Of a DNA stretch of 53,941 bases, positions 35,189 through 50,158 are shown piece by piece. How positions within the stretch are numbered: position 1 is the first letter of the stretch; each line of letters begins with the position of its first letter. Source of the stretch: Spirochaetaceae bacterium (GTDB lineage: Bacteria; Spirochaetota; Spirochaetia; DSM-27196; SLAA01); contig PUPD01000302.1 of assembly GCA_003552985.1 (NCBI GenBank), positions 1-53,941 on the forward strand, in the 5' to 3' direction. The position numbers and the translations under genes are program-made. The notes below the pieces were generated by a model. That model did no database searches. It was given only the letters and a program-made list of their open reading frames with translations, and was not told the DNA's origin.

Positions 35189-36649
35189 ATGTCACTGAAT
35201 TGGCGTGAGATAGATCTCGTGCTCGACGAGCTGAGCCTGTTAGGGGCACGAGTACAACGCATTGCCCAGCCTCGATTCTCTCAGCTCAGGCTGGAGCTGT
35301 ATCGGCGACGCGAGGCGCTCACGCTGCTGATCGCAATGGAACAGGGGAAGACGCGCCTACATCGCACGGTCGCCGGTTTCAGCAAGCCCGGAACCCCGCA
35401 ACGATTCCAGCAGCTGTTGCAGGCGCGGCTGCGCGGAGGGGCGATCACCGAGATCAAGCACGTCCATCGTGACCGGATCATCCGTTTCGGGATCTCGAGA
35501 GCCGGGGAGCAGTATCAGCTCTGGACCCGTCTCTGGGGCGGCTCGGCAAACGTAATTCTCACCGACGATGAGGGGACGATCATCGACGCGATGTACCGCC
35601 GGCCGAAGCGCGGCGAGGTAAGCGGCAGCGTGTTCTCGCCGCCGCCACCCGACGCTGAGGCCGCACAGAAGGCAGAAGCGCTAGAGGTGCGCCCGTTTCT
35701 CATACAGCCCGCCTCCACCGGTGACGGCCGGTATCCGGTCAGCGCCGCGATTGAAGCGCGTTACGCGACCCTTGAGCACGAGGAACACCTTGCCCGCCTA
35801 CGCCGTGACGCCGACAAGGCGCTCGCCTCTCGAGAAGCGGCGTTGCGCCGTCGCTTCGAAGAGCTGCAACGGCGCAGTAGTGAAGGCGAGCAGAGTGAGC
35901 GCTATAAGGTGATCGCGGATGCGATTATGACGGGGCTGCACCGTGTGGATCCCGGAACCGGCTGGCTCAAAGTCGAGAATCCTTATGATCCGAGCGAGGT
36001 TCTCGAGATTCAGCTCGACCCCACACTGAGCGGCAGTGATAACGCCGAGCGTTATTACCGCAGATACAAGAAGGCACGGGCCTCCCACGAAGCGACCGAG
36101 CACGAGCTCAGCGAAACCACCGCTGCACTCGAACGCGTCCGTACACGGCGGCAACGGGTGCAACAGCTCGGCGATCCAAACGAGCTCGCGGCGCTGATCG
36201 GCACTGCGCGCAAGCGGCGGCAACGCGGGGCGAGCGAAGATCGCGCTCCGGCTGTCCCGGGCCTGCAGTTCCACTCGGGAAAGCTGCAACTCTATCTCGG
36301 CCGTACGGCGATGGAAAACGACGAACTGCTGAGACGACACGTGCGCGGCAACGACCTATGGTTGCATGTTCGCGATCGGCCCGGCCCCTATGTGTTTGTC
36401 AAAACCCCCAAAGGCAAGAGCGTTCCGCTCGAGACGCTCCTGGACGCCGGAAACCTGGCGTTGGCCTATAGCAAAGCCAAGGCCGAAGGACGTGCCTTGA
36501 TCCAATACACGCAGGTAAAGAACCTGCGTAGGGCGAAGGACGGTCCAAAGGGCCGCGTTATCCCGTACCATGAGAAGACGATTGAGGTTGAGCTCGATCA
36601 GGAACGACTACAACGGCTCCGCAGGCCGGGAGATGAGGAGAGCCCGTGA
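35189..36649 (+). CDS. NFACT family protein (RqcH / fibronectin-binding-like)
   Basis: N-terminal NFACT-N-like domain, coiled coil, C-terminal NFACT-R: GNDLWLHVRDRPGPYVFVKTPKGKSVPLETLLDAGNLALAYSKAK. Confidence 0.85.
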   Translation: MSLNWREIDLVLDELSLLGARVQRIAQPRFSQLRLELYRRREALTLLIAMEQGKTRLHRTVAGFSKPGTPQRFQQLLQARLRGGAITEIKHVHRDRIIRFGISRAGEQYQLWTRLWGGSANVILTDDEGTIIDAMYRRPKRGEVSGSVFSPPPPDAEAAQKAEALEVRPFLIQPASTGDGRYPVSAAIEARYATLEHEEHLARLRRDADKALASREAALRRRFEELQRRSSEGEQSERYKVIADAIMTGLHRVDPGTGWLKVENPYDPSEVLEIQLDPTLSGSDNAERYYRRYKKARASHEATEHELSETTAALERVRTRRQRVQQLGDPNELAALIGTARKRRQRGASEDRAPAVPGLQFHSGKLQLYLGRTAMENDELLRRHVRGNDLWLHVRDRPGPYVFVKTPKGKSVPLETLLDAGNLALAYSKAKAEGRALIQYTQVKNLRRAKDGPKGRVIPYHEKTIEVELDQERLQRLRRPGDEESP

Positions 36650-37233
36650 AGGAATCAGATTATGATCAACTGACTAAGGCTGCCGGCCGCACCCTGCTGC
36701 GCGTGGCGCGTGAAGCGCTTCGGTCGGAGGTGGGGAACGCCCCGTTTGAGCCGCCGGAGATCCCGTACGAGTTGGAGCGCCCGGGGGGCGCGTTCGTAAC
36801 GCTTAAGCGCGAGGAGCAGCTTCGCGGCTGCATCGGTGCGCTCGAAAACACCCTCCCGATCTGGCAGACCGTCGAGAAATCCGCAAGACAGGCGGCGACG
36901 ATCGATTACCGCTTTGATCCGGTCCGACCGGAAGAGCTTCCGCAGATCAGGATCGAGGTTTCGGTAATCTCACCGCTCGAGCGCGTCCCGGAGCCGAGAA
37001 ACTCGAGCTCGATCACGATTGGTCAAGATGGGCTGTGCATTCGCTACAAGCAGCACAGCGGGGTTTTGCTGCCGCAGGTAGCCGCAGACCGAGCGTGGTC
37101 CGCGGAAGAGTTCCTGGAGCACGTATGCCTCAAAGCGGACCTCAAACCGGACTGCTGGCAGCGCCCGGAGGCCGAGCTGTTTCGGTTCACTGCCGTGGTG
37201 TTTGACGAGCGCTCGATAGACGTGGAATACTAG
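36646..37233 (+). CDS. AMMECR1 domain protein (AmmeMemoRadiSam system protein A)
   Basis: GGAFVTLKREEQLRGCIGALENTLPIWQTVEKSARQAATIDYRFDPVRPEELPQIRIEVSVISP: LRGCIG motif. Confidence 0.93.
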   Translation: MKESDYDQLTKAAGRTLLRVAREALRSEVGNAPFEPPEIPYELERPGGAFVTLKREEQLRGCIGALENTLPIWQTVEKSARQAATIDYRFDPVRPEELPQIRIEVSVISPLERVPEPRNSSSITIGQDGLCIRYKQHSGVLLPQVAADRAWSAEEFLEHVCLKADLKPDCWQRPEAELFRFTAVVFDERSIDVEY

Positions 37234-44888: not shown

Positions 44889-44979
44889 ACCGCCAACTAT
44901 AGGTTTCGCCGATTCTGTGTGTCAAGCAGATACACTCGCGCTCCCGCATCCGCAGCCGCAAACCCGACGCACCCGAGGT

Positions 44980-45715
44980 GTGGACCGTATTTTGCCCGAG
45001 GCAATCGACGGTTACTGCGTGATGCAGATTTTGTTCGACCATGACGGTAGCCCGCACGACTACCGTTTTTTGGAAGCCAACGCCGCGTTCGATCATCATA
45101 CCGGCTTAAGAATGCGGTCGGCAGAACCGCGCGCGAGTTAGTCCCGAACATAGAGGCAACCAGCCGAAGCGTTACGGACGGGTGGCCACCACCGGTGACC
45201 CCGAACGCTTTATCGAGGGGTCGGCCGCGATGGGAAGGTGGTTCGAGGTAGAGACATTCCGCGTGGGCGTAGCCGGGGAGCACACGGTCGCGCTATTGTT
45301 TCGCGACGTCACCCAGCGCATTCACGCCGAACAGGAGCTGAAGGAGGCGAAACGAGCCGCCCCCGTGTTGCAACCCTTCGACCCTGCCGGCCTCACCCGT
45401 GAGGTTGCCCTAACCCACCAAGAGGCGGCCGGCGCGCTGCGGCTATCACCGGAAGACTCCTCGCACCCTGAGCTTGAGCTCACCGTAACCGATTCCGGCG
45501 TCGGGATTCCGGCCGAAAGACTCGCGACAGTGTCGGAGCCGTTCGCCCAAGCCGACAGCAGCTCCTCGCGCGAGTTCGGCAGCACAGGGCTCGGCCTGAT
45601 GATCGCGCGAAAAACCATAGAACGGATGCACGGTACCATCGAGGTTGAAAGCACCCCGGGGGCGGGCAGCACCTGCCGGATCCGGCTCACGGTCACCCTA
45701 CCGGAACCGGATTGA
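44980..45715 (+). pseudogene. Degraded PAS-sensor histidine kinase relic
   Basis: Three reading frames must be joined: ...DGYCVMQILFDHDGSPHDYRFLEANAAFDHHTGL / KNAVGRTARELVPNIE / GNQPKRYGRVATTGDPERFIEGSAAMGRWFEVETFRVGVAGEHTVALLFRDVTQRIHAEQELKEAKRAA, then directly a HATPase tail TVTDSGVGIPAERL...GSTGLGLMIARKTIERMHGTIEVESTPGAGSTCRI. HisKA and N-box are missing. Confidence 0.8.
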
Positions 45716-45864: not shown

Positions 45865-47523
45865 ATGCAAGTAAAAACCAAAATCATGTTGGTTGTGCTG
45901 CCGGTGGTAGTTGCAACCGCCGTACTGGTCGGCATTTCGTCGTTTTACGCTTCGACGAGCGGCATAACCAGAGTCACCACCGAGTTCCTTCAGTTCAAGG
46001 CACAGCAGCTCTCAACCTATGCTCAGGGACAATGGGACCTTCTGGTCGAAAACGAGCTGCAGCATCGCGACGAGATGCGGCGGGCGGCACAGCGAGGAGT
46101 GGCGGCCTTTGCCCGGTCAATCGTGGAGCGCGACTCGGAACTGATCCTCGCCGTTGACCTTGATGGGAATCTGACCATGAATACCCATGCAGTGGAGCTG
46201 AGTGACGCTGAGCGCGCGCAACTAGCGACTCTCGCTGCACGCGATGAGCGCGACTTGCTCCAGCTTACAATTGACGGAGTCGAGCACGTGGGAGCAGGCT
46301 TTTACTTTGAACCGTTCGAGTTGTACTACGTCGTCAGCGAGGAGCGAGCAGTCTTTTTCGCCGAAACCGATCGCATGGCCCGCCAGACCTTCCTTATTCT
46401 TTTGGTCTCGATCGCTGCTGCGATCGCGGTATTGTTCACCTTGTCGAGTTTCCTGACGCGACCGTTGAACCGCGTGGTGCGTGCAATGTAGGATATCATC
46501 GCAACCGGAGAGCTCTCTTCGCGTGTGGAAGTGGAGTACCGCGATGAGATCGGTGCTCTCTCGCACACCTTCAACCTCATGACGAGCGAGCTGCAGAGAG
46601 CCTACGAACAGATCAAGAGCTACGCCTTCGATGCGGTGCTGTCCCAGAAGAAAGAGCAACGCATCCGGCAGATATTTCAGAAATACGTACCGCAGGACCT
46701 CATCAGCCGTTTCTTCGAGAATCCCGAGGAGATGCTGGTGGGCGACAATCGTCAGCTTGCTATCCTTTTCTCCGATATTCGCGGCTTCACCGGAATCTCG
46801 GAACACATGCGTCCTGACGAGCTCGTGAACGCGCTAAATCGCTATTTTTCCTACATGGTCGATGTGATTCTCGAACAACACGGAATCGTGGACAAGTATA
46901 TCGGCGATGCTATCATGGCTTTTTTCGGCGCGCCGCTCGCCCGCGGAGACGAGCCGGACCGCGCAATACGAGCAGCGTTGGGAATGATCGCGGCATTGGA
47001 TTCCTTTAACGCTGAGCAACGCGAGTCTGGAAATGCGCCTTTCACGATCGGAATCGGGGTTGCTTTCGGAGAGGTTACAGTCGGCAATATCGGGACCGAT
47101 CGCAAGATGGACTACACCGTGATCGGCGACGCGGCGAACGTCGCGTCCCGCCTTGAAAGCCTGACCAAAGAGTATGGGGTTTCCTTACTCGTAGCCGAGA
47201 ACGTGCGCGAACAGTCGAGTCTTGAGATCCCCTGGCGTCTCGTCGATACCGTAGCGGTGAAAGGCCGAAGCGCCGGCATTAGGCTCTATACCACCGAGCC
47301 GGACCCTGATCCCCACCGCCGCGATCACTGGCAACGGCATAACCGGGCGATGGAGCTGTACTATGCCAAGCATTTCGGCGAGGCGGCGGAAGAGTTCCGC
47401 GAGTTACTGCGCAGCGATCATACCGACCATCTCGCCGAACGTATGCTCGAGCGTGCTCTCTCCTATAGCAGGGAAGATCCCGGGCCCGAATGGACCGGGG
47501 TTGAAGTAATGACGATGAAGTGA
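45865..47523 (+). pseudogene. Membrane adenylate/guanylate cyclase (sensor-HAMP-CYC) interrupted by one in-frame TAG
   Basis: 45865-46491 encodes TM, periplasmic sensor, TM and start of HAMP (LTRPLNRVVRAM*). The same frame resumes DIIATGELSSRVEVEYRDEIGALSHTFNLMTSEL...LFSDIRGFTGISEHM...VDKYIGDAIMAFFGAP...DYTVIGDAANVASRLE to 47523. Confidence 0.85.
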
Positions 47524-47531
47524 GCTTTCGT

Positions 47532-48791
47532 ATGCGAGTTAAGCTTAAATTCCGGTTGCGTGCGGCCGCGGCCTTGCTATCGACCCTGACCTTTGCGGCC
47601 GGAATCGCGACGATGCTTCCGGCGGGGGAGAGCCAGCGGATTTCGCTGGCCCTCTCGGCCCCGCAGGTATTCGACCTGGCAGATGCGGATACGGGCGTCC
47701 TCGACCCAGATGAGCTCCGCGACACCTTTGTGGAGCTGATTCGGAAACAGCTGACAGCGGAGCCTGAGTTGTCGCCGGAGATGATCTCCAGCCAACAATT
47801 GGATTCAGAAACTCTTGTGCGCCGGGCGCGAGACCTCGGTTATCCGCTTGCGGCTACCGTATACGTTATGCGCGACGCTAACCTGCGCCTCGGTATAGGC
47901 GTAAACATCTACGAAACTGAGACAGGCTACGTGGTGTCGGGCAGGTCCGCGTTCGGTGCCTCGGATGTGGCGCTGGCACACGCGCTGGAACGCGGGCTCG
48001 CAGGCCTCGGTAACGAGCTCCGAACCTACCTCAGCACCCGTGAGCTCGAACGCCGGCTGAATGTGCGCCGCATCACGTTACTCTCACCCGTTCCCGACGT
48101 GGTCGTGACTTTCGCCGATGGCCGCAGCGTCGCGTTTGACGACAGCGGTGCGATCGTCCTTGACGACCCGCCGTACCGCGTAGGACAAACGATAACGCTC
48201 TCCGCCCATCGGCCGGGATACTATCCCCAAACGGTCGATCACTATATCGACGCGCCCGAGACGACCGTCTCGGTTCCCAGATTACAGCGTCGCACGCGCT
48301 ACAGCCTGGGCGGAGCCGCCTTCCCGGCTCACGGGATCGGGCTGTTGGCAGTCGGTCGCTGGTATCCGAGAACCGACACCGTGTTTGCCGAACTGACCGG
48401 CGGAACGTTTCGGGTGAGTCCAAGGACCGAGTTAGCCTCTCAGCTGGAGGAGGACCTGGACGATCTGCAAGCCGGGGAGATCGAGGCTTTTCGTCTTGAT
48501 GAGCTTGGAATGAGCGTCGGCGCGTACTTGTTCGCGACGCCCGCGAGACCGATAAGGCCGGGTCTTCAACTCGGCGCGGGTGTGATGCACGCGCAAGGTT
48601 CGGGCTGGGACGCAACCATCCCCTATCTCGCACCGATCAATCCCTTCGTATCGTTCGGCACACAACGCCTGCGGGCGCGGGTCGTTACGGCATTGCGGTA
48701 TACCTTCGGCGCCGAAGCGGCAAACCGGAGGTGGCTGATCACCGAAGGCCCTATACCGTACGGTCGTCTTGAGGTGAGCTATACATGGTAG
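47532..48791 (+). CDS. Probable outer-membrane protein, PEGA-like segment plus C-terminal beta-strands
   Basis: Signal peptide; tail ...GPIPYGRLEVSYTW ends in an aromatic residue; alternating beta-strand pattern. Confidence 0.55.
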   Translation: MRVKLKFRLRAAAALLSTLTFAAGIATMLPAGESQRISLALSAPQVFDLADADTGVLDPDELRDTFVELIRKQLTAEPELSPEMISSQQLDSETLVRRARDLGYPLAATVYVMRDANLRLGIGVNIYETETGYVVSGRSAFGASDVALAHALERGLAGLGNELRTYLSTRELERRLNVRRITLLSPVPDVVVTFADGRSVAFDDSGAIVLDDPPYRVGQTITLSAHRPGYYPQTVDHYIDAPETTVSVPRLQRRTRYSLGGAAFPAHGIGLLAVGRWYPRTDTVFAELTGGTFRVSPRTELASQLEEDLDDLQAGEIEAFRLDELGMSVGAYLFATPARPIRPGLQLGAGVMHAQGSGWDATIPYLAPINPFVSFGTQRLRARVVTALRYTFGAEAANRRWLITEGPIPYGRLEVSYTW

Positions 48792-50158
48792 TGGTAGCCA
48801 CAGGAATCACCGAGCTATTAGCGGGAGTAGCGGGCCGACGCACCGCGAGTGAGTCAGTCATCCGACGGAGAGGATCAACCGCGCGACGGTCCGGACCGCG
48901 GCGGGCTCGGCTTCGCTTAAGGGTGCGCGTAGTGCTCGCTGTCATCGCCCTGCTCAGCGCTGTCATCGCCCAGCCCTTAGCGGCACAGTCTGAGTCCGTC
49001 AATGATGATAGTCTTCCCGATCCGCGGCCGCGCCGAATCATTGTTATTGTGCAATCAGTGGATGACCCGGCATTCCCCTCTGGGGTCCTAGCTGAATCCC
49101 TGGCCGCCGCACTGGCTGCCTCTCGCGAGGACCTACAGGTGCGCGTGACCGCTTCGAGTGACGAGACACCGCAGCTCGGAGCTGATCGGGCTCACGCGAA
49201 CGCCTACGCCCGCGGGCATGACGCCGACGCCTATCTGCTGGTGAACCTCGAGCGCGATGACCCAGACGTCCTGACCGTACGGTGGCGGATCGGCGACGTT
49301 CTTCAGAACACCGACTCGACCGGACAGTACAGAACACCCCTCACAGGCCCCCGCGAGCTGCACAGGCGTACCTGGATACCAATCGTTGAAGCGATAGCCA
49401 CCGACGTTCCTCCTCGCTCCGAAGCAGTAACGCTCGAGATTCGCGGGGTCCCCGATACCCGGATACGGATTGACCCGGGAACACAACTCACACTCGATGA
49501 GCACGGAGTCGCAACCGCTTCGCTACCGGTACCGGGTGAGTACCATCTGGAAGCCCATCATCGCGAGTTTCTAAACGTCCGAAAACGTGTGGCTCTGGAG
49601 TCCCACACCGCTCTCCTCCTCGATCAGCAACGCCGACCGGCTGTCATGGCACAAGCGTCCTTGTTCAACGCCCAGTTCCCTGAAATTGCTGCAGCCTGGC
49701 TCCCGCGCCGCCAGGAATGGTATATCGGCGCCGCCGCTACATTCTTTCAGCTGGGCGTTGCGCTTCGAGAACGCGATGATCAGGGTAATCAGGACGGAGT
49801 GTTCGTTTCGCTTCCCCTTGCTCACCTCGGACTGATAGGCGGTTACCGGTTCGGCGCTGAGGAGCTCCGCACGCGCCCCTACGTGGGCTTGAACCCGTTT
49901 CTACGGGTGAAGACAGACGGTGGGTTCGCTTTGGAACCCAATGCTCCGATCGGCATCGCGGTGAACGCCGGGGTAGAGTACCGCCTCTTCGCATCCGATG
50001 CTATCTCGTTTGAATGGACCCCCACCTTCTATCCGACCGACGGCCGCGTGGCGAGAGAAGATTTCTATGACGGCGACCCCGGTACGGCGACTGTCTCGCT
50101 CGACGGGCTGTTCATGGAGCTCACCCTCATCCGCATCGGGTACCGCCGCAGGTTCTGA
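48785..50158 (+). CDS. Probable outer-membrane protein related in layout to the preceding gene
   Basis: Signal peptide VVLAVIALLSAVIAQPLAAQ; PEGA-like VTLEIRGVPDTRIRIDPGTQLTLDEHGVATASLPVPGEYHLEAHH; C-terminal beta-strands ending RIGYRRRF. Confidence 0.55.
   Translation: MVVVATGITELLAGVAGRRTASESVIRRRGSTARRSGPRRARLRLRVRVVLAVIALLSAVIAQPLAAQSESVNDDSLPDPRPRRIIVIVQSVDDPAFPSGVLAESLAAALAASREDLQVRVTASSDETPQLGADRAHANAYARGHDADAYLLVNLERDDPDVLTVRWRIGDVLQNTDSTGQYRTPLTGPRELHRRTWIPIVEAIATDVPPRSEAVTLEIRGVPDTRIRIDPGTQLTLDEHGVATASLPVPGEYHLEAHHREFLNVRKRVALESHTALLLDQQRRPAVMAQASLFNAQFPEIAAAWLPRRQEWYIGAAATFFQLGVALRERDDQGNQDGVFVSLPLAHLGLIGGYRFGAEELRTRPYVGLNPFLRVKTDGGFALEPNAPIGIAVNAGVEYRLFASDAISFEWTPTFYPTDGRVAREDFYDGDPGTATVSLDGLFMELTLIRIGYRRRF

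Follow-up and report, generated by a model that had tools for sequence, protein, structure and literature searches.

An in-frame amber codon in the HAMP domain of an otherwise intact class III adenylate cyclase gene of a spirochaete, probably a recent nonsense allele

The window, that is the whole 53,941-nt stretch of DNA analysed here, is contig 118 of a 305-contig draft genome (3.93 Mb, 91.5% complete, 4.7% contamination) that is probably metagenome-assembled, and its closest named matches were spirochaete genomes, most of them metagenome-assembled. An adenylate cyclase gene occupies positions 45865-47523 of the forward strand and consists of 552 codons plus TGA, reading in frame 1 from the ATG at 45865 to the TGA at 47521-47523. 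As an earlier note on this DNA had described, the frame is interrupted by one internal TAG at codon 209 (46489-46491), within the HAMP domain; neither a second stop nor a frameshift was found in the 552 codons, and a whole-genome search recorded '1 TAG' within an otherwise open 557-codon frame at this locus. The encoded layout is transmembrane helix, extracytoplasmic sensor, transmembrane helix, HAMP and class III cyclase, with hydrophobic stretches near residues 3-30 and 171-198. With the TAG read as one residue, the Pfam HAMP profile (PF00672) matched residues 193-244 with 46.0 bits, comfortably over its cut-off, and ran across the stop, and the genome search placed the domain at 46441-46596 of the forward strand with 46.6 bits and one TAG inside. 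The class III catalytic domain (46753-47268, forward strand) matched Guanylate_cyc (PF00211) over residues 297-468 with 80.5 bits versus a cut-off of 21.9, and the six catalytic positions, D304, K344, D348, T418, N425 and R429 in read-through numbering, were present and were invariant in 53 related loci. From class III cyclases in general, we take D304 and D348 to be the two metal aspartates, K344 and T418 the base-recognition pair, and N425 and R429 the transition-state pair.

The stop divides the gene into an upstream fragment (45865-46488, forward strand) of 208 aa, which comprises the two membrane helices and the first part of HAMP and had no Pfam match when searched alone, and a downstream fragment of 332 aa from a GTG (46525-47523, forward strand), which holds the end of HAMP and the complete cyclase domain. 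The cyclase is one of six PF00211 proteins that a profile search found in the source genome; one of the others, on contig C175, is an intact full-length paralog of 553 aa with ~50% identity to the interrupted protein, four further cyclase-domain proteins lie elsewhere, and no stop was found in any of these other five cyclase domains.

The locus was compared with a same-genus genome (G003, hereafter the sister) and with the next relative (G002), which was used as the outgroup. Between metG and the cyclase, the window carries a decayed sensor histidine kinase remnant (44908-45715, forward strand), in which PAS/histidine kinase pieces lie in three frames, the HisKA region is deleted and only the C-terminal HATPase part is left after frameshifts. 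At the same place the sister has a 375-residue ORF with HisKA and HATPase that is without a stretch kept in the window, and no kinase was found between metG and the cyclase in the outgroup; the comparison suggests that the kinase is a dispensable, independently eroding insertion. The earlier note's remark that some 550 codons show no other decay therefore holds for the cyclase itself and fails for its neighbourhood, where the upstream kinase is broken. Downstream, the next gene (47520-48791, forward strand) starts at a GTG that overlaps the cyclase TGA, an arrangement also present in the sister, and may be translationally coupled to the cyclase; the gene after it in turn overlaps its TAG. Because these start/stop overlaps link the cyclase with the next genes, expression of the overlapping downstream genes might also fall if the stop is real. 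The two overlapping genes (47520-50158) encode proteins of 423 and 457 aa that are 90-93% conserved with the sister and had no Pfam matches, and are perhaps envelope proteins, judging from their sequences.

The stop codon was then set against its counterparts in related genomes; the earlier note had proposed such a comparison with sister strains. The sister ortholog has an open frame within the same gene order over ~19 kb, at 92.8% DNA and about 95% protein identity, and its alignment to the interrupted gene spans residues 1-552 without a gap, bearing out the note's statement that exactly one residue stands opposite the stop. Codon 209 is TCG (Ser) in the sister and ACG (Thr) in the outgroup, whose ortholog has 71% protein identity and lies at the same position after metG. 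The compared genome collections hold one genome per species, and no stop at codon 209 was found in any of the 53 related loci, among which a few records occur twice, from two collections, and one locus is the genome's own paralog. At this column R or K were commonest and N, Q, E, S, T and D also occurred, and since it is so mixed among the 53 loci, position 209 tolerates many residues. The origin from a CAG (Gln) codon that the note had supposed finds no support in the TCG of the sister and the ACG of the outgroup; instead, the simplest origin of the TAG is likely one C-to-A change from the serine codon TCG. A stop absent in close relatives, in a frame that is otherwise intact, is the pattern of a recent nonsense pseudogene. 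A separate window-lineage change at codon 216, shortly after the stop, makes GAGAGCTCTC, a 10-base palindrome at 46508-46517, and this is probably a chance occurrence.

Purifying selection was observed on both sides of the stop. Against the sister, dN/dS was 0.069 for the whole gene, with values of 0.093 for the part preceding the stop and 0.057 for the part following it, and no other full-length protein in the syntenic block is as conserved as the cyclase (95.5% identity versus 70-95% for the others). When the changed codons were polarised with the outgroup, 8 nonsynonymous and 17 synonymous changes were assigned to the window lineage and 6 and 30, respectively, to the sister lineage, a difference that was not significant (Fisher p = 0.22). 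From these branch counts, the hypothesis that the window copy had been unconstrained along its entire branch is rejected (p about 3e-6), and with it that of a long-standing pseudogene. For the unconstrained share of the branch, the upper 95% limit came to 0.27 with the gene taken as a whole and to 0.18 with only the codons that follow the stop, by which estimate any lost constraint covers no more than about the final quarter of the branch. Together with the purifying selection seen before and after the stop, these limits indicate that the stop is either young or not real.

We consider it probable (roughly 0.6) that a recent, ordinary nonsense substitution has broken this membrane-bound class III adenylate cyclase within its HAMP domain, in keeping with the first of three options that the earlier note had offered, a very recent mutation, which is the best supported of them. 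Most simply, TCG (Ser) would have become TAG through the one C-to-A change, translation would end at residue 208 and leave a membrane stub without the catalytic domain, and the gene copy would be non-functional or nearly so; both the reality of the base and this phenotype are what we infer. The stop is probably an allele at the strain or population level, and the remaining frame would still be intact because the change is young. The decay of the neighbouring histidine kinase indicates that the locus tolerates loss, and the intact paralog and four other cyclase-domain proteins may make the loss of this copy tolerable.

The main rival to a recent nonsense allele is that the TAG stems from a consensus or assembly error, or from the collapse of a minor allele, and that the gene is intact in the organism; we regard this as possible, if rather unlikely. 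One wrong base in a draft of this contig number, completeness and contamination would look identical, the remainder of the cyclase frame looks functional, and many internal-stop pseudogenes in assemblies were found to be technical errors in a 2024 study by Cooley and Wright (PMC11017572). Against an error stands the nature of the change, a clean single substitution with no homopolymer indel, and so does the rest of the assembly: stops were found in none of the 88 ABC ATPase domain matches and in none of the 14 other HAMP domains of the source genome. These two counts give no sign of a poor, stop-rich assembly. Scanning 443 kb for coding potential brought up 39 candidates for a stop within the same frame, and when five of the scan junctions were checked with Pfam on both sides, four proved to be different neighbouring genes and one was uninformative. 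The clean frames make random error rare but real nonsense equally rare, and they therefore cannot decide between the two.

A functional split, in which a membrane stub would be made together with a HAMP-less soluble cyclase from GTG 46525 or ATG 46579, possibly with sensor-independent activity, appears improbable. The downstream piece does keep the cyclase domain whole, including the six catalytic positions, a GGAG lies upstream of GTG 46525, and, as the next gene overlaps the cyclase stop, some restart would preserve coupling. However, this GGAG (46507-46510), the best Shine-Dalgarno-like match with a duplex energy of -5.5 kcal/mol, is 14 nt upstream of the GTG, a spacing that is longer than usual and poor, and no relative examined is divided at codon 209. 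Furthermore, the GGAG and the GTG are both already found in the intact sister and predate the stop, so that no new start has evolved. Of the note's proposal of a split through a downstream GTG, the start with its GGAG does exist and a split is possible, whereas the spacing is poor and nothing in the sequence suggests selection for a divided gene. A single-sequence fold of the 332-aa fragment had a pLDDT of 39, and the model was left out of the conclusions. The bolder form of this idea, that one point mutation rewired cAMP signalling into a two-protein arrangement with a free, sensor-independent soluble cyclase from GTG 46525, is more doubtful still; production of an active free cyclase, if demonstrated, would make an elegant example of a single mutation rewiring signalling.

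The decoding of TAG in this genome was ordinary. TAG ends 64 of the 245 long ORFs in the 443 kb of genome sampled, all three species use TAG to end a gene near the cyclase (36646-37233), and release factor RF1 is present (539 bits), so neither the avoidance of TAG as a terminator nor the RF1 loss expected of a recoded codon was found. No CTA-anticodon tRNA, the amber suppressor for which the earlier note had advised a search, occurred among the 36 tRNA genes found, in a draft whose tRNA set is incomplete; judging from their sequences, two truncated tRNA genes, each located at a contig end, encode serine tRNAs (anticodons TGA and GGA). Directly after the serine tRNA (GGA), a bacterial small SRP RNA lies at that contig end (L141, G000:C275, 105-203). 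The sole PylS match scored 21.5 bits, below the 178-bit cut-off, and comparable sub-threshold matches turned up in most control genomes. Given how TAG is used, the presence of RF1, the tRNAs found and the PylS result, recoding or suppression is unlikely. Programmed readthrough, for which a stop shared across species would be expected, is unlikely because the stop is in no relative examined. A 2021 survey argued that many in-frame stops are read through, with purifying selection as the signature, but also observed that such stops generally last no longer than population polymorphisms do (PMC7918605). That signature is visible on both sides of codon 209, but with the stop in no relative examined the selection signal mostly predates it. 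Together with the frequent use of TAG as a true stop, the presence of RF1, the lack of a CTA anticodon among the tRNAs (though their set is incomplete) and the sub-threshold PylS match, this makes it very improbable that a suppressor tRNA, pyrrolysine or a leaky context lets translation continue past the UAG to give full-length cyclase, the option of the earlier note that fares worst.

A recent nonsense allele thus remains the preferred reading. Draft genomes commonly contain single nonsense alleles in redundant signalling genes, and one alone carries little weight; the case serves rather as a worked example of how a recent nonsense change or error can be told from a recoded stop by the codon of the sister, the usage of TAG, the tRNAs present and the branch counts.

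Compared with bacterial HAMP-linked class III cyclases (PF00672 plus PF00211), the interrupted gene likewise has two membrane helices, HAMP and a cyclase domain with the six canonical catalytic positions: its PF00211 match lies above the gathering score, and HAMP stands between a membrane helix and the cyclase. Intact orthologs and paralogs from across the spirochaete order and class are ~50% identical to it, and the window copy alone differs by the stop at codon 209, which makes it other than a single uninterrupted reading frame. The orthologous stops from which readthrough was argued (PMC7918605) are shared among species, whereas the TAG at codon 209 is not. With known recent nonsense pseudogenes and population-level in-frame stops (PMC7918605, PMC11017572), it shares a single stop in a conserved frame that is absent in relatives, and, like them, when seen without reads it has the same look as an assembly error. 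Either a short-lived allele or such an error would account for the case, which shows no essential difference from the known nonsense pseudogenes, the position of the stop within HAMP being incidental.
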